Below are positions 4,404-41,488 of a DNA stretch of 53,781 bases, piece by piece. Position 1 is the stretch's first letter. Each line of letters starts with the position of its first letter. The translations under genes and the position numbers were made by a program. Source of the stretch: an uncultured Myxococcales bacterium. GTDB lineage: Bacteria > Myxococcota_A > Polyangia > Polyangiales > Polyangiaceae. The stretch is from contig CALFNG010000160.1 of NCBI GenBank assembly GCA_937902985.1, positions 1 to 53,781 on the forward strand, in the 5' to 3' direction. A model generated the notes under the pieces. It searched no databases, was not told where the DNA came from, and saw only the letters and a list, made by a program, of their open reading frames with translations.

Positions 4404-5177
4404 TCAGCAGAACCATCCGAGCTCGACGCCCTTGCGAACGAGGTCGTAGCGGCCGCGCACCTGGAGCTTGGAGTACACGCCGCGCAGCTGGCAGGCGATC
4501 GTCTGCGCCGACTTCGTTCGCTTGATGGCGATTTGCCATCGGGAGTCCCCCTCGGCGAGGTACGCCGCTACCTCCTCCTCGGCGCACGTGAGCGACTGCC
4601 GTCCGATCGCCGGCCTCGGAATGCTGAGGAGGACCCTAGGCTCGTCATCGCTGAAGAGGTCGGCGCATCGTGCCGCGACCGGAAGGGCCCGGTCGGCCTT
4701 TCGGGTTTGTGCGGCGATGACGAGCGGGAGCGGCAGCGGCCGGCGCCGGAACCCGAGCTTCTCGAGCGCGGACGTGTACCACTTCGAGGCGGTCGAGCAG
4801 GCCATCTCGAGCTCCGGGGCGACGGCCTTCTGCTGCTCACCGCAGAGCACCCGGCCGAGCACCGTGGTCTCGCGGTCGTTCAGGAACTCGCCGGCGGTCT
4901 TGTGGATGCTCATGAACACGTAGTGGCGGTCGGCGTCGGAGACGGTCGAGTCCACCCGCAGCCGGCCCCCGATGAAGTCGTGCCAGATCCGGGCGAGGTC
5001 GGCCGGCCCCGCCATCGCGTCGGCCTGCCGTGCCTCGGGGAGGATGTCGCGTGCGAGCGGCAGTGGCGGTTCACTCGGGCGTAGCGGCGGGATGCGCACG
5101 CCCGAACGGTCGTCACGTGCCAACAGCGTGTGTCGTGGAGTGCGTCGTGCCGATTCCGCCTGGAGTTGGAGCGCCAT
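4404..5177 (-). CDS. Transcriptional regulator with two tandem LuxR-type HTH domains
   Basis: Two copies of the LuxR/GerE HTH pattern are visible in 257 residues. The first (about 99-143) reads LNDRETTVLGRVLCGEQQKA then STASKWYTSALEKLG. The second (about 196-253) reads LTCAEEEVAAYLAEGDSRW then TIACQLRGVYSKLQVRGRYD, and it keeps the usual C-terminal helix. There is no receiver, PAS or autoinducer domain, only a 98-residue N-terminus. ATG 5177 is used here; ATG at 5015 (MAGPADLARIW) is a plausible shorter start and would still include both HTH units. The gene converges on the methyltransferase gene, 57 bp away. It probably binds DNA, but its target and trigger are unknown. Confidence 0.78.
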   Translation of the reverse strand: MALQLQAESARRTPRHTLLARDDRSGVRIPPLRPSEPPLPLARDILPEARQADAMAGPADLARIWHDFIGGRLRVDSTVSDADRHYVFMSIHKTAGEFLNDRETTVLGRVLCGEQQKAVAPELEMACSTASKWYTSALEKLGFRRRPLPLPLVIAAQTRKADRALPVAARCADLFSDDEPRVLLSIPRPAIGRQSLTCAEEEVAAYLAEGDSRWQIAIKRTKSAQTIACQLRGVYSKLQVRGRYDLVRKGVELGWFC

Positions 5178-5337
5178 GACGGGAAGATCATCCCGCCCCC
5201 GCCACGTGTCGATTACAGCCGATTACTTCGGTCCGGCGGCCGCTCGAACGAGCGCTCGAACGCTTCGCAATCGTGCCGCTATCCGTGCGGCGGACTGCCC
5301 GTCGAGCGCGCTCTGCGCGATTCTCTCGTCGGCCCGC

Positions 5338-5883
5338 TCAGATATCGCCGTTCGCGGTTTGCAAGGTCGGGCACACCGAGCAGCTGCTCGCCGAGCACGA
5401 GGCGAGATCCGTGAACGCCGTCACGGTGGCCGACGAAGCCTGCGCTTCGCACCCCTGGACGCACGACGGATCGGTGGGCAGGCAGTTCAAGACGCAGAAG
5501 GCGACCGACGCGCAGCTCGTGTCGTTGGGGCAGCTCGACGGGTTCGAGCAGCAACTCGCCGCGATGCAGGCGATGCAGGCCGCCGTTGTCGTGCCGAAGA
5601 TCTGAGTGGCTCCGGTGCACGACGTGGCGTCTCCGATCGCGCCGGTCGAGGTGCCTTCGGGGGCGCTGCCGTCACCCTCGGCCGAAACGCCTCCGCCGGC
5701 CACGCTCGCCGTGCAGGGGACGCCGTTCTTCTCGGTGCAGCCCGCGGGGATCGGCGGATGCGGCGCGCTGTTCGAAGAGCACGCGAGCACCGCTCCGAGA
5801 GCGGCGGCGGCGAGCGGTCCCAGCGCTCGCTTCGCTCCGGGCGACCTTCCATCGATCCGATCTCGTGTGACCATGACTCTCAC
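5338..5883 (-). CDS. Cys-rich lipoprotein, function unknown
   Basis: The 181-residue product starts with a basic n-region, a hydrophobic segment (LGPLAAAALGAVLACSS) and a lipobox-like LAC, so it is likely a lipoprotein. The mature part is low-complexity Gly/Ser/Ala followed by a Cys-rich domain (CIACIAASCCSNPSSC, CVLNCLPTDPSCVQGC) with about 17 cysteines, probably disulfide-bonded outside the cytoplasm. Proteins of this style are common in Myxococcota genomes, but none has a function I can assign. A divergent small lipoprotein gene lies 162 bp away. Confidence 0.75.
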   Translation of the reverse strand: MRVMVTRDRIDGRSPGAKRALGPLAAAALGAVLACSSNSAPHPPIPAGCTEKNGVPCTASVAGGGVSAEGDGSAPEGTSTGAIGDATSCTGATQIFGTTTAACIACIAASCCSNPSSCPNDTSCASVAFCVLNCLPTDPSCVQGCEAQASSATVTAFTDLASCSASSCSVCPTLQTANGDI

Positions 5884-10348: not shown

Positions 10349-12064
10349 ATGACGGAGGGCAGCCGGAGCGGCCTGCCGCCGCTGACGCACGGTACGGTCG
10401 TCAGCGACCGCTACGAGATCCGTCAGAGCCTCGGCAAGGGCGGAATGGGTGAGGTCTTCCTTGCCTACGACCGCACCACCCAGCAGCCCGTGGCCCTGAA
10501 GATCGTCCGCGAAGAAGCCCGGATGCCGGGCGACGACGAGGCGCTCCGGCAGGAGCTGCTCCTGGCGCGGTCGGTCAGCCACCCGAACGTTTGCCGCGTG
10601 CACGATCTCGCGTCGAGCCCGTACGGGCCGATCCTCGTGATGGAGCACATCACGGGGCAGACGCTCCACACGCACATCCGGCGCAAGAAGGCGCAGGGCG
10701 GCTATACGGCCGACGAGTTCCGTCGCATCGCCCACGACGTGGCCTCGGGGGTCGCGGCGATCCATCAGCAAGGCCTCGTTCACGGCGACCTCAAGCCCGG
10801 CAACGTCATGGTCACGACGAACCAGGACGGCTCGTTCGGCAAGGCCATGGTCCTCGATTTCGGCTTCGCCAAGGAGCGCGCGCGGGCCAGCGCGCGACGC
10901 CCGGGGGCCCCGCCCGACGGCGGAACCCCGAACTACATGAGTCCGGAGCGCATTCGTTCGGGCGGCGCGAGTCCCGAGGACGACGTGTATGCGCTCGGGC
11001 TGACGCTCCTCGAGATGTGGACCTGCCGGGTGCCCGAGCCCGGGTACAAGCCGCGCGCGAAGCCGATGCGCCAGCAGATCATGTTCGACGTGCCCTCCGG
11101 GCTGAGCATCGACGAGATCAAGCAGGTGTTTCGCTGCTTCGCCGACGACTCGCAAGAGCGTCTGCCCGCGCGCCACCTGCGGTTCTTCAACCCGGTGACG
11201 CTCACGACCAACCCCATTCAGGTGCCACGCGAGCGCCTCGACCCCGGGCCGCCGCCGGGCCGGAGCGCATCGCAAGCGTTCGTGTCGGGTTCGCAAGCGC
11301 TGCTCGCGACGTTCGCGACCAACGCACCCGAGTTCGTTGGCGAGCTGGTCAGCCTCGACAAGCCTGTCGTTTCGGCGGGTCGCCGGGCCGACAACGACCT
11401 CGTCGTGCCCGAGGCCACGGCGAGCGGGCAGCACGCGGTGCTCAAGTGGCAGAACGCAACCTGGATCGTCGAAGACGTGGGCTCGACGAACGGGACCTAC
11501 GTCGACTTCACCTACGAGCGCAGGAAGAGCGTGAACCTGATGCACGGCGGCGAGGTGCAGCTCGGGGAGCTGCGCTTCAAGCTCGTCAGCTTCGTGCGCG
11601 ACGGAGCGAACCACCGGCGCGCGCGAGCGTACCTTCAGAAGCGTGACGGTCTAACCGGCCTTCTCATCCGCGACCAGATGTTGAAAGCCCTCGACGAGGA
11701 GGCGGCGTTCTCCGACTGGGTCGAGGCGCCGCTCACGCTCGCTCGCTACGAGCTCCGCGGCCCGAACCGGCTGGTCAGCGACCGGCCCACGATCCTCGAG
11801 ATGCTCGCGCTCCGGCGAACGGCCACGCGCGTGGTCGAGCTCACCGACATGCTTCTGCTCTCGCTCATCGCGGTGACCGCGGGCCGCACCGGGCCGCTGC
11901 GCTTCTGCGTCGCGATGGTCGGTCCCGGCTCTCAGGAGGCGCGGAACCTCGTCGAACAGGTGGTCGGGCAGGTGCAGGGAATGCTGCCTGACGGGCTCGA
12001 CCTGGCGGCGACGATCGCTCGCTACGAGCTCGGCTTGAATGTTCGATCTTTGGTGGACTCATGA
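10349..12064 (+). CDS. Serine/threonine protein kinase with FHA and degenerate GGDEF-like C-terminus
   Basis: The 571-residue protein has three parts. A Hanks-type kinase domain (about 22-270) shows the Gly loop LGKGGMGEVFLAYD, the ATP lysine K51 (VALKIV), the catalytic loop HGDLKPGN with D147, and DFG at D170. The residue before the catalytic Asp is Gly, not Arg, so this is a non-RD kinase. An FHA domain follows (about 333-410: AGRRADNDLVV, GSTNGTYVDF) and should bind phosphothreonine, perhaps its own. The last 140 residues begin RDGLTGLLIRDQMLKALDEE, which resembles the start of a diguanylate cyclase domain, but no GGDEF motif follows. No transmembrane helix is seen, so it is probably cytoplasmic. 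The stop overlaps the first ATG of a repeat ladder that runs to the next gene. Confidence 0.93.
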   Translation: MTEGSRSGLPPLTHGTVVSDRYEIRQSLGKGGMGEVFLAYDRTTQQPVALKIVREEARMPGDDEALRQELLLARSVSHPNVCRVHDLASSPYGPILVMEHITGQTLHTHIRRKKAQGGYTADEFRRIAHDVASGVAAIHQQGLVHGDLKPGNVMVTTNQDGSFGKAMVLDFGFAKERARASARRPGAPPDGGTPNYMSPERIRSGGASPEDDVYALGLTLLEMWTCRVPEPGYKPRAKPMRQQIMFDVPSGLSIDEIKQVFRCFADDSQERLPARHLRFFNPVTLTTNPIQVPRERLDPGPPPGRSASQAFVSGSQALLATFATNAPEFVGELVSLDKPVVSAGRRADNDLVVPEATASGQHAVLKWQNATWIVEDVGSTNGTYVDFTYERRKSVNLMHGGEVQLGELRFKLVSFVRDGANHRRARAYLQKRDGLTGLLIRDQMLKALDEEAAFSDWVEAPLTLARYELRGPNRLVSDRPTILEMLALRRTATRVVELTDMLLLSLIAVTAGRTGPLRFCVAMVGPGSQEARNLVEQVVGQVQGMLPDGLDLAATIARYELGLNVRSLVDS

Positions 12065-12210
12065 CGCGTGGCCTCATGACGCGTGGCCTCATGACGCGTG
12101 GCCTCATGACGCGTGGCCTCATGAGCGTGGCCTCATGACGCGTGGCCTCATGAGCGTGGCCTCATGAGCGCGGACCCGTGAGCATGGGACTCGTGAAGGT
12201 CGACTCGTGA
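12061..12210 (+). repeat. Tandem 15/14-bp repeat forming a relay of overlapping stop/start codons
   Basis: Five copies of ATGACGCGTGGCCTC (12061, 12076, 12091, 12106, 12135) are interspersed with two 14-bp variants lacking one base (12121, 12150), then a degenerate tail. Read from the ATG that overlaps the kinase stop, this yields a chain of mini-frames: 12061-12138 (25 aa), 12135-12167 (10 aa), 12164-12181 (5 aa) and 12178-12210 (10 aa). Each start overlaps the previous stop as ATGA or GTGA, and the last stop overlaps the GTG of the next gene at 12207. No Shine-Dalgarno-like purine run precedes the mini-starts. Whether any peptide matters is unknown. Confidence 0.85.
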
Positions 12211-12866
12211 GCCCGCGCGAACCCTCGCATCCGCCGTCGGACCCTCGCCCGACCCGCGCACGGAGCAGCGGCGACGGATTCCCGACGCCCGAGCGGCCCC
12301 CACGTGCGCAGCTCGTCGCGGCGGCCATCGTGGGGCTGCTCCTCGTCGGGGGGGGCCTTTATCTCTGGCGCAGACCCCACGGCTCCGCGGAAGGGTCGGC
12401 GAGCGAAGCCGCGTCCCCGTCGGCGTCGGCGCTCGCCGTCGAAGACGCGCACGGCGCCGTGGCCACGCTCGACGCCGGCGGGCCCGCGCCCGTTTCCGTG
12501 TCGGAACCGCGCGTCCTGGCGTGCCACGACAAGGGCCCCCGAAAGACTCCCGCCGACCAGTGCGACCACGTGGCGACTATCGAGCAGGCTCTGGCCCAGG
12601 CGATCTCTCAGTCGGCCTCGTGCGGCGCGTCGTCGGCGAGCGGGGGCACGATCGAATACGTGGCCGACGTGAGCTTCTTGCGAAGAAAGGTTCGCATCAG
12701 CCTGCCGAGGGCCGGCCGCTCGCTGCGCGATCGCAAGATCGTCGGAGCCTGCGGCGCCGCCGTCCGCGAGGCGATGGACGCCCTGGCCCTCGAGGGCGCC
12801 GACCACGAGCACGCGCGCTACAAGATCTCGGTCACGGCGACCTACCGCGGCAAGATCCAGGGCTGA
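12207..12866 (+). CDS. Single-pass membrane protein, function unknown
   Basis: This 219-residue protein has a Pro/Arg-rich cytoplasmic N-terminus, one transmembrane helix (about 35-54, AQLVAAAIVGLLLVGGGLYL) followed by WRR, a low-complexity Ala/Ser linker, and a C-terminal domain (about 100-219) with four Cys and a beta-rich end (RYKISVTATYRG). The C-terminal part may be exported, but the positive residues after the helix leave topology uncertain. GTG 12207 overlaps the last stop of the preceding repeat relay, so its translation may be coupled to the kinase gene. It could be a partner or substrate of that kinase (inference). No family recognised. Confidence 0.7.
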   Translation: MSPREPSHPPSDPRPTRARSSGDGFPTPERPPRAQLVAAAIVGLLLVGGGLYLWRRPHGSAEGSASEAASPSASALAVEDAHGAVATLDAGGPAPVSVSEPRVLACHDKGPRKTPADQCDHVATIEQALAQAISQSASCGASSASGGTIEYVADVSFLRRKVRISLPRAGRSLRDRKIVGACGAAVREAMDALALEGADHEHARYKISVTATYRGKIQG

Positions 12867-17404: not shown

Positions 17405-17983
17405 CTAGTGAGAGAATTCGCCCACGAGCGAGCCGGCGGCGAGCACGTGACCACGCAGCGCGGCGTCGATCCCGTCACGGTTCGGCTCGGGACCCGCGCG
17501 CAGCGGGGCGTCGAGCGCGAAGACGCGGAAGGCGTACCGATGGATCTCGAGCTGAGGAGGGCAGGGGCCTCCGTAGCCGGGTCGCTTGAAGTCGTTGAGG
17601 CCCGTGGACCCTCCGGTCGAGGCGAGGTCGACGGCCTCGGGAAGCGAGCGTGCATCGCCGCTGATGTCGTAGGCGATCCAGTGCGTGAACGTGCCGCTCG
17701 GCGCGTCGGGGTCTTCGACCACGACCGCGAAGCCGTGGGTGCCAGGCGGCGGCGCGCTCCAGGTGAGCTGCGGCGAACGGTTCGCGCCGTCGCAGGTGTA
17801 GTCGACCGGAATCTGACCGCCCGATGGAAACGAGCGACTCGTCACCGCGAGCGACTCGACGACCTTGCCCGGCGGGGCCAGCGAGCCCGTGGTGCCGCAG
17901 GCGATGCCGGCGAACGAGGCGAACGAGGCGAACGAGGCGAACGAGGCGAACGAGGCGAACGAGAGAAAGCTCCATCTCTTCAT
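17405..17983 (-). CDS. PEBP family (YbhB/YbcL, Raf-kinase-inhibitor-like) exported protein
   Basis: This 192-residue protein has the bacterial PEBP motifs IPVDYTCDGANRSPQLTWS, VEDPDAPSGTFTHW and GPCPPQLEIHRYAFRV that form the anion-binding pocket. Bacterial members have no settled function. The N-terminus is a short basic start (MKRW) followed by six copies of Phe-Ala-(Ser) coded by a perfect 9-bp tandem repeat, ending in GIACGTTG, which looks like a lipobox. ATG 17983 is 4 nt downstream of the stop of the membrane-protein gene, so the two are probably one transcription unit. Confidence 0.88.
   Translation of the reverse strand: MKRWSFLSFASFASFASFASFASFAGIACGTTGSLAPPGKVVESLAVTSRSFPSGGQIPVDYTCDGANRSPQLTWSAPPPGTHGFAVVVEDPDAPSGTFTHWIAYDISGDARSLPEAVDLASTGGSTGLNDFKRPGYGGPCPPQLEIHRYAFRVFALDAPLRAGPEPNRDGIDAALRGHVLAAGSLVGEFSH
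17910..17963 (-). repeat. Six perfect 9-bp repeats coding the hydrophobic core of a signal peptide
   Basis: Six head-to-tail copies of GCGAACGAG (plus-strand sense) encode (SFA)n in the h-region of the PEBP protein's signal sequence. The 9-bp unit keeps the reading frame, so copy-number change would only lengthen or shorten the hydrophobic core. Confidence 0.95.
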
Positions 17984-35920: not shown

Positions 35921-37096
35921 CTACGGAGGCGGAGGTTGGAGACGGGGGCGGACGAGTGGTTCGGGCGCGGAGCCGTGGCGGAGGCGGATCAGGGTGGGCG
36001 CGGCGGCGATCACCTGGCCGTCGAAGGTGCGGAGGCCAATTTCGGCGCCTGAGGCCTTGCGCGTGTCGAGGGAGGCACGTACGACGTAGAAGCCGGCGCG
36101 GTCGAACGCTCGCGTCGGGCAATAGTCCGAGAGCATCACGGTCAACGCCGTCGAGCCGCCGGGCCCGAGCGTAGCGAAGAGGTCCCGGGTGGGCGCCGAC
36201 GCCAGGGTCGACCATCCACAATGGTCCGCGCCGCTGGGGCCCAGCACTTCGAAGGCGATCGTCTCCGGTCGGAATCGGACGATGGCCGCGCGATGCCCCT
36301 TGTTCACGAGCGTGAGGGCGACCGCGATCTCGTTCCGCGACGACGCGTCGACCGAGCGCTGGGCATCGAGCGCCAGGAGCGTCTCGACGTGCGCGACGGG
36401 CCGGCCTTCGGCGAAGTCCTTGGTCGCGGGGATCGGGGTCGGTTCGTCGGGGAGGGCGATCGCCGCGGACGTGATCGATTTGCTCGGAGCGAGCTGCGAT
36501 TCCATCCCCTCGACCGGCGCGACTTCGAGCGGCGGACGGGCCGTTTTACCCGGCCAGCCGAGGCGAGCGACGACGATGGAGCCCGCGGCGAGGGAATCGA
36601 GACGGCGGCTCTCGAGGCAGTAGAGGCGCGGCTCGAAGCGCTCGGCGTACGTTCGCTTGGGCGGCAAGACGATCGGGCGGCCCAGATCGTCTTGAGGGCG
36701 CATCTCGGCGGGGAGCTCGCAGTGCTCGGCCGCGCGGGCACCGCGGGCCGTCACCTCGAGGCTCAAGAGCCGCGCGTCGGCCACGAGGGTGACGGGTACG
36801 TCGCCGTCGTTCGTGACGTGCATCGTCCACGGCCCGCGGGTCGTCGGCGCGTCAATCGTGAGCGACACGCTCGCCGAAGGAGGCGCCGGCGAGAGCTCCG
36901 CCTTCGCGTCACCGGGAGTGGTCTTCGCGGAAGACGGGTGCGCCGCGGCCGGCGACGCGCCCGCGTTCGCCGTGGCGAACGCGGCGAACGCGACGAACGC
37001 GACGAACGCGACGAACGCGACGAACGACGCGAGGCCCCCGCGCATGCGGCGGAAGGTCACCGACGTCGAGGACGCCGAGCGCGTCGAGCCCGTCAT
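35921..37096 (-). CDS. Secreted protein with repeat-coded signal peptide, function unknown
   Basis: From the ATG at 37096 the product has 391 residues; ATG 37045 (MRGGLASF) is a likelier start because it leads straight into the signal peptide. The h-region reads FVAFVAFVAFVAFAAFA and is coded by a 9-bp tandem repeat, followed by NAGASPA. The rest appears to be two beta-sandwich domains (LTIDAPTTRGPWTMHVTNDG early; VALTLVNKGHRAAIVRFRPE later), each starting like an Ig/transglutaminase-like accessory domain. No catalytic motif is seen. The gene is convergent with the hypothetical gene at 34442. Confidence 0.75.
   Translation of the reverse strand: MTGSTRSASSTSVTFRRMRGGLASFVAFVAFVAFVAFAAFATANAGASPAAAHPSSAKTTPGDAKAELSPAPPSASVSLTIDAPTTRGPWTMHVTNDGDVPVTLVADARLLSLEVTARGARAAEHCELPAEMRPQDDLGRPIVLPPKRTYAERFEPRLYCLESRRLDSLAAGSIVVARLGWPGKTARPPLEVAPVEGMESQLAPSKSITSAAIALPDEPTPIPATKDFAEGRPVAHVETLLALDAQRSVDASSRNEIAVALTLVNKGHRAAIVRFRPETIAFEVLGPSGADHCGWSTLASAPTRDLFATLGPGGSTALTVMLSDYCPTRAFDRAGFYVVRASLDTRKASGAEIGLRTFDGQVIAAAPTLIRLRHGSAPEPLVRPRLQPPPP
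36972..37025 (-). repeat. Six 9-bp repeats coding a second signal-peptide core
   Basis: GCGACGAAC (plus-strand sense) is repeated four times exactly, with two variants at the left end, and encodes (FVA)n in the signal peptide. It is similar in design but not in sequence to the repeat at 17910-17963. Confidence 0.95.
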
Positions 37097-41028: not shown

Positions 41029-41320
41029 CGTGCGAGAGCGCCGAACGGTTCGTTCATGCGGCAGCGCGTTCCTCGAGGCGCTGGATCGTCTCGAGGTCGA
41101 GGACAGCCGCGTGCCGTCGCACATCGAACAGGTTCTTGCGCGAGGCGCGATATCGGGCGCGTGGGCCTTGTTTCCGCGCGCGCGACGTCCCGTCCTCAGC
41201 GCGTCCGAAGGACGCGACTCCTGGCGAAGCCGAACGGTCCAGCTCGCACAAGGGAGAGGTCCGTCGCCGAGGAAGGCCGATCCGCTCGCCCCAATGAGCC
41301 AATCGTCGGCGGCGTAGCTC

Positions 41321-41488
41321 GATCGGCTCCCTCGAGGAGCCCGTCGATCAACGACGCGACCCGATCAGCTCAACTGAGGAATCCGTCCCTCAGCGAAGTA
41401 GCCCGATCGGCTCGCCTGAGAGACCCGTCGCTCAGCGAAGCAGCCCGATCGGCTCGTCTCAGCGACGGGTCGCTCAGCGAGGGGAGCC
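41321..41488. repeat. Four 42-bp tandem repeats in a 0.7-kb gene gap
   Basis: Units at 41321, 41363, 41405 and 41447 begin GATCGGCTC or GATCAGCTC and share CGTCGCTCAGCGAAGCAGCC-like ends. The 42-bp unit keeps one plus-strand frame open, giving a 14-residue repeat of the type ARSARLRDPSLSEA, but the remainder of that frame (40996-41577) is Arg/Pro/Ser noise and I do not call it a gene. The rest of the gap (41029-41320, 41489-41615) shows nothing convincing apart from a small TCAGGT/ACCTGA inverted repeat at 41590-41607, just past the desaturase stop. Confidence 0.85.

Follow-up and report, generated by a model that had tools for sequence, protein, structure and literature searches.

A tandem repeat carrying serial stop/start overlaps between a kinase gene and a putative membrane-protein gene in an uncultured member of the Myxococcales

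Introduction

Does a chain of stop/start overlaps laid out by a tandem repeat between two genes serve to pass ribosomes from the first gene to the second, or is it what such a repeat produces of itself? The question is raised by a junction in an uncultured Myxococcales bacterium (assembly GCA_937902985.1, 8.3 Mb in 563 contigs), in which a 14/15-bp array lies between the gene of a Ser/Thr protein kinase and that of a 219-aa protein. The window analysed here is contig CALFNG010000160.1 (C160) at its full length of 53,781 nt, and coordinates refer to it unless another locus is named.

Overlaps of -4 nt are an experimentally demonstrated route for termination-reinitiation (PMC6728339, PMC10666635), and overlaps couple translation in both E. 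coli and Haloferax (PMC6728339). In E. coli coupling falls with distance: a gap of 14 nt costs 40-80% of it and one of 38 nt nearly all (PMC10666635). With so steep a fall, little coupling would be expected across a spacer of 43-47 nt, whereas serial overlaps could in principle hand ribosomes on from one to the next.

Results

The kinase gene and its downstream neighbour

The two genes have the same direction and are probably co-transcribed, in a neighbourhood with an alanyl-tRNA synthetase upstream and a PurF-like amidotransferase downstream (Table 1). The kinase, which terminates at TGA 12062-12064, has orthologues of 87% identity in both same-genus genomes (L062 and L004). The 219-aa protein gave no match in a Pfam search and appears from its sequence to have a single membrane segment and a Cys-containing C-terminal domain. 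Alignment backs GTG 12207 as its start, the sequence being MSPREPSHPPSDP here, MADPREPSHPPSDP in L062 and MQRREPSHPPSDP in L004.

Table 1. Features of the junction in the window
Feature	Coordinates	Strand	Source or remark
Ser/Thr protein kinase with FHA domain, 571 aa	10349..12064	+	Pfam Pkinase 2e-44, FHA 5.7e-15
Tandem array: ATGACGCGTGGCCTC (15 bp, 5 copies) and ATGAGCGTGGCCTC (14 bp, 2 copies)	12053..12172		TRF
Mini-frame 1, 25 codons	12061..12138	+	ATGA start overlapping the kinase stop
Mini-frame 2, 10 codons	12135..12167	+	
Mini-frame 3, 5 codons	12164..12181	+	
Mini-frame 4, 10 codons	12178..12210	+	ends on the membrane-gene start
Three degenerate RTGA units (14, 15, 14 nt)	12164..12206	+	sequence
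GAAGG, weak Shine-Dalgarno-like motif	12195..12199	+	sequence; 7 nt before GTG 12207
219-aa protein	12207..12866	+	start backed by alignment; upstream neighbour is the kinase

Layout of the array and the relay

The array covers the kinase stop codon and is described by TRF with a period of 15 bp, 8.1 copies, 94% matches and a score of 210. Its head-to-tail, near-identical copies have the form of a minisatellite, and a score of this size over 8.1 copies places them above chance. The motif RTGA (ATGA or GTGA, each a stop/start overlap) occurs at 11 sites (12061, 12076, 12091, 12106, 12121, 12135, 12150, 12164, 12178, 12193 and 12207) with spacings, in order, of 15, 15, 15, 15, 14, 15, 14, 14, 15 and 14 nt, none of the ten being 1 mod 3. 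The earlier note had described a chain of five overlaps here, at 12061/12135/12164/12178/12207, and every one of these coordinates is right: the relay runs unbroken from the kinase through ATG 12061, ATG 12135, ATG 12164 and GTG 12178 to GTG 12207 of the 219-aa gene, so that the stop/start overlap between the two genes is made via four mini-frames and not directly. The RTGA pattern extends beyond these five overlaps. As it recurs at 14 or 15 nt up to the gene start, the last three units look like degenerate relatives of the regular ones, and RTGA is intact at 11/11 sites though these three have otherwise diverged. The antisense strand of the array also carries an overlap relay, because TCATGA is a palindrome.

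The relay as a consequence of unit length

When two RTGA motifs are 0 mod 3 apart the second is read through in frame, and when they are 2 mod 3 apart its TGA falls in frame; an RTGA-bearing unit of either length class must therefore relay, and units of 14 and 15 nt do so in any mixture provided that no further stop lies inside them. The fit of 14- and 15-bp units, which had been read as exact tuning, is not a tuned coincidence, since any RTGA unit whose length falls one base short of a multiple of 3 ends its frame on the RTGA that follows, and 17,932 of 20,000 arrays of random-core ATGA units with identical layout relay unbroken. Dinucleotide shuffling of the spacer, repeated 20,000 times, still gave an RTGA relay without a break between the kinase stop and 12207 in 5,350 cases (27%), and one of five links in 519 (2.6%); by arithmetic only 2, 5, 8... 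links are possible between these points. In ~1.1 Mb of the same genome (about 13% of the assembly, the part that our genome-wide counts cover) five-link relays into another frame of at least 100 codons were found for 3 of 2,296 long open frames, ours included. Chance does not account for the array itself, but once the array is there the relay follows almost automatically, and it is as such weaker evidence than its appearance suggests.

Duplicated stop/start junctions elsewhere, sought in 2.1 Mb, provided few cases for a comparison of unit length mod 3. At one gene junction on contig C410 of the same genome (L223 5200-5240) three ATGA sites lie 11 nt apart, at 5206/5217/5228 (ATGAGCCGGGG ATGAGTGGGGT ATGAGCGGCG), and form a three-step relay joining the gene of an AAA/TPR protein to an 83-codon frame, which in turn overlaps an IF-2B-family gene by GTGA.

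Changes in copy number

Slipped pairing had been proposed to make the array an expression switch through its repeat number. Exhaustive deletion and duplication of units refutes this: the 219-aa gene frame is still reached after 10/10 single deletions, 10/10 single duplications, 55/55 block deletions and 55/55 block duplications, and 5,000/5,000 random arrays deliver the ribosome into it, an in-frame N-terminal extension not being scored as failure. A copy-number on/off switch is thus ruled out, as all gains, losses and reorderings of units stay linked, and slippage by whole units would have no effect beyond making the reinitiations more or fewer. The gene is reached, via 4 links, from an altered array with 13- or 16-bp units as well, so the chain tolerates more than the 0/2 mod 3 rule would allow. 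The changes that do break a link lie inside a unit: of 426 single substitutions 24 have this effect, and of single-base indels roughly one in five.

The junction in related genomes

The kinase/membrane-gene pair is widely conserved in the family. Its spacers within the genus measure 43 nt (L062) and 47 nt (L004) and have neither array nor overlap. A start could be assigned in 73 distinct junctions, whose gaps have a median of 35 nt, and 67 of these 73 lack a direct overlap (the present one entered as a 142-nt gap); overlaps of -4 nt occur in L129, L131 and L132 and of -1 nt in L007, L024 and L110. Automatic start assignment is uncertain in some of these junctions, as in L074, where the start was set too far downstream and more likely lies at 5809. 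Conserved overlaps with a variable number of units, which the earlier note predicted for related genomes, were accordingly not found among these junctions, nor is the overlap conserved in the orthologous pairs, a property that supports the assignment of a coupled pair without strictly defining it.

Strong tandem arrays are present in 5 of 86 junctions, the present one included, and their units are unrelated: 14 bp x 4.9 in L074 and 20 bp x 2 in L134, both covering the kinase stop, 18 bp x 5.4 in L094 and 55 bp x 2.4 in L140. Absence from L062 and L004 and unrelated units in these four junctions are the distribution expected of a minisatellite, and unrelated arrays in the same spacer across genera suggest that the spacer acquires different minisatellites in different lineages. 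Without its seven regular units the present spacer would be 39 nt long, near the 43 and 47 nt of its same-genus relatives, so that the simplest history would be expansion within an ordinary short spacer.

The L074 array (5709-5778, in another genus) is an independent 14-bp array with the consensus ATCCGGCCTGACGC in which the stop codon of the kinase itself recurs; as it does so in the form CTGA, no RTGA overlap or chain arises there. At the same locus a GGGAGAGG motif precedes the membrane-gene start. The 20-bp duplication in L134 (TAGCCTGGTCGAGTGACGGC, 4818-4857) copies the kinase stop codon too.

Initiation at GTG 12207

The absence of a Shine-Dalgarno site, as first claimed for this junction, was too strong a statement, since the AGG within GAAGG ends 7 nt before GTG 12207. 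The upstream window pairs with the anti-Shine-Dalgarno sequence at -6.1 kcal/mol, in a duplex that is not one contiguous helix. A sigma-70-like promoter was sought near the junction and not found. In predicted folds the start region (-5..+9) has a mean unpaired value of 0.18 with the array and 0.34 without it, and this lower predicted accessibility would favour coupled over independent initiation.

Distribution of the unit and other repeats of the genome

Exact copies of the array unit are confined to contig C160, and matches with 1-2 mismatches are scattered singletons; a dispersed or mobile unit is ruled out by the lack of exact copies elsewhere. Across 60 family genomes TCATGA arrays gave a few matches, one of which (L163) lies inside an apparent coding region. 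Similar-sized neighbouring contigs were considered as strain variants of one another and rejected as not homologous.

Arrays scoring at least 210 occur at 13 places in 1.12 Mb of the same genome. Within the window a perfect 9-bp repeat of 6 copies (17909-17963) encodes on the minus strand a repeated Phe-Ala-Ser set in the apparent signal-peptide core of a secreted protein, whose length could vary, and a second 9-bp repeat, CGAACGCGA, has 5.7 copies (36976-37026). Arrays with a 42-bp period and similar-looking units lie on different contigs (window 41314-41480; L194 7311-7657; L146 187-281), suggesting a dispersed 42-bp tandem-repeat family in the genome. Arrays with a 44-bp period, rich in GATCGC and ATGGC (L201 2589-2867; L157 1-372), are perhaps a second dispersed family. 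Several arrays are found at contig ends and probably broke the assembly.

Discussion

The junction is probably best explained by a lineage-specific minisatellite whose units happen to hold ribosomes in a stop-start chain. Slipped-strand duplication would have enlarged the array in the spacer between the two co-directional genes, starting from a seed unit that held the kinase stop region GGACTCATGA and giving each unit an ATGA, with GTGA in what would be the older, degenerate units. Since RTGA units measure 14 or 15 nt, any frame that a ribosome enters on terminating at the kinase stop would end on an RTGA further along, the chain leading at last to the start of the gene. With RTGA in every such unit the array is self-closing, able to grow, shrink and reorder without cutting the chain, and this property may be the reason that it is tolerated; the array itself is presumably neutral. 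Stepwise termination-reinitiation is plausible in that the geometry allows it, and expression of the 219-aa gene would most likely combine weak de novo initiation at GTG 12207 with the reinitiation that the relay permits, with no switch. Three observations weigh against a mere minisatellite: RTGA at all sites together with the lack of 1 mod 3 spacings would also be expected under selection for the chain, a second RTGA cluster with 11-nt spacing stands at a gene junction of the same genome (L223), and accessibility of the start is predicted to be lower in the presence of the array, which would favour coupled initiation.

The first alternative is that the relay is functional, with ribosomes that terminate on the kinase reinitiating at successive RTGA sites and synthesis of the membrane protein tied, entirely or for the most part, to that of the kinase. 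On this account the array would have turned a 40-50-nt spacer without coupling into serial -4 nt overlaps. The chain is indeed unbroken, the start region is more closed in its presence and the degenerate units retain RTGA. Strict coupling was reported for 13 of 14 overlapping pairs tested (PMC6728339), and mini-frames of 5-25 codons may be long enough, since the last 15 nt of an upstream gene are sufficient (PMC10666635). However, losses at each of five steps would multiply over the four extra reinitiations, chains arise as well in 27% of shuffled spacers, none of the relatives examined conserves the relay, and GTG 12207 has a weak Shine-Dalgarno-like motif of its own. We regard both coupled synthesis and the conversion of the spacer as possible but rather unlikely. 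A stronger form, in which a frame-proof, expandable relay turned an uncoupled spacer into a coupled one and selection kept RTGA and unit lengths of 0/2 mod 3 while the rest decayed, we consider doubtful and less credible still.

Each link of the junction, ATGA or GTGA, belongs to the commonest type of overlap, as in -4 nt overlapping pairs; unlike those pairs, where one overlap joins two genes, the junction has five in series with non-conserved mini-frames between them. The only precedent that we found in the literature for repeat arrays with serial overlaps is the mycobacterial interspersed repetitive units, or MIRUs (Supply et al. 1997), here taken as they are summarised in PMC12548453 and PMC4213456: mycobacterial repeats with -4 nt overlaps, for example in the senX3-regX3 spacer, where the units are 53-77 bp long and vary between strains (PMC4213456). 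On these summaries, both are tandem repeats that separate a kinase gene from its downstream neighbour, the MIRUs being strain-variable, and in both a -4 nt overlap links an internal frame with that neighbour. The MIRUs are described as lying at many places and as apparently mobile, whereas our unit is single-site (C160 only) and presumably locally grown, and their 53-77 bp contrast with the 14/15 bp and several serial overlaps found here. The array thus resembles a MIRU in outline and is not a member.

The remaining explanations carry little weight. The array might be a set of DNA-binding sites or an RNA structural element with incidental overlaps, as TCATGA and ACGCGT are both palindromes and the folding of the RNA is slightly more stable than that of shuffled sequences (z -1.9); this is very unlikely, because neither an array nor an exact copy of the unit occurs elsewhere in the genome, no promoter-like site was found in the region, and so modest a z is expected of a palindromic repeat. 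Phase variation, in which slippage would alter the unit number and switch the downstream gene on or off, is more improbable again: adjacent identical copies do suggest recent, perhaps ongoing, slippage, and short tandem units beside a start codon recall phase-variable tracts (variable number tandem repeats), but here the frame stays linked whatever the number of units, and the relay is broken by changes within a unit and never by deletion, duplication or reordering of units. An assembly artefact in the copy number or the array itself, as might be suspected with 563 contigs and several tandem arrays at contig ends where assembly broke, is scarcely credible for a 120-bp array that lies in the interior and has distinguishable unit types, a stretch of ~120 bp often being contained in one read.

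If the relay is used, the junction would offer a natural experiment on the number of reinitiations that one ribosome can make in succession, and on whether stop-start repeats are tolerated in operons because ribosomes stay on the message. If it is unused, the minisatellite would be a clear case of a striking frame pattern arising automatically from a repeat unit, and a caution for the reading of genomes.
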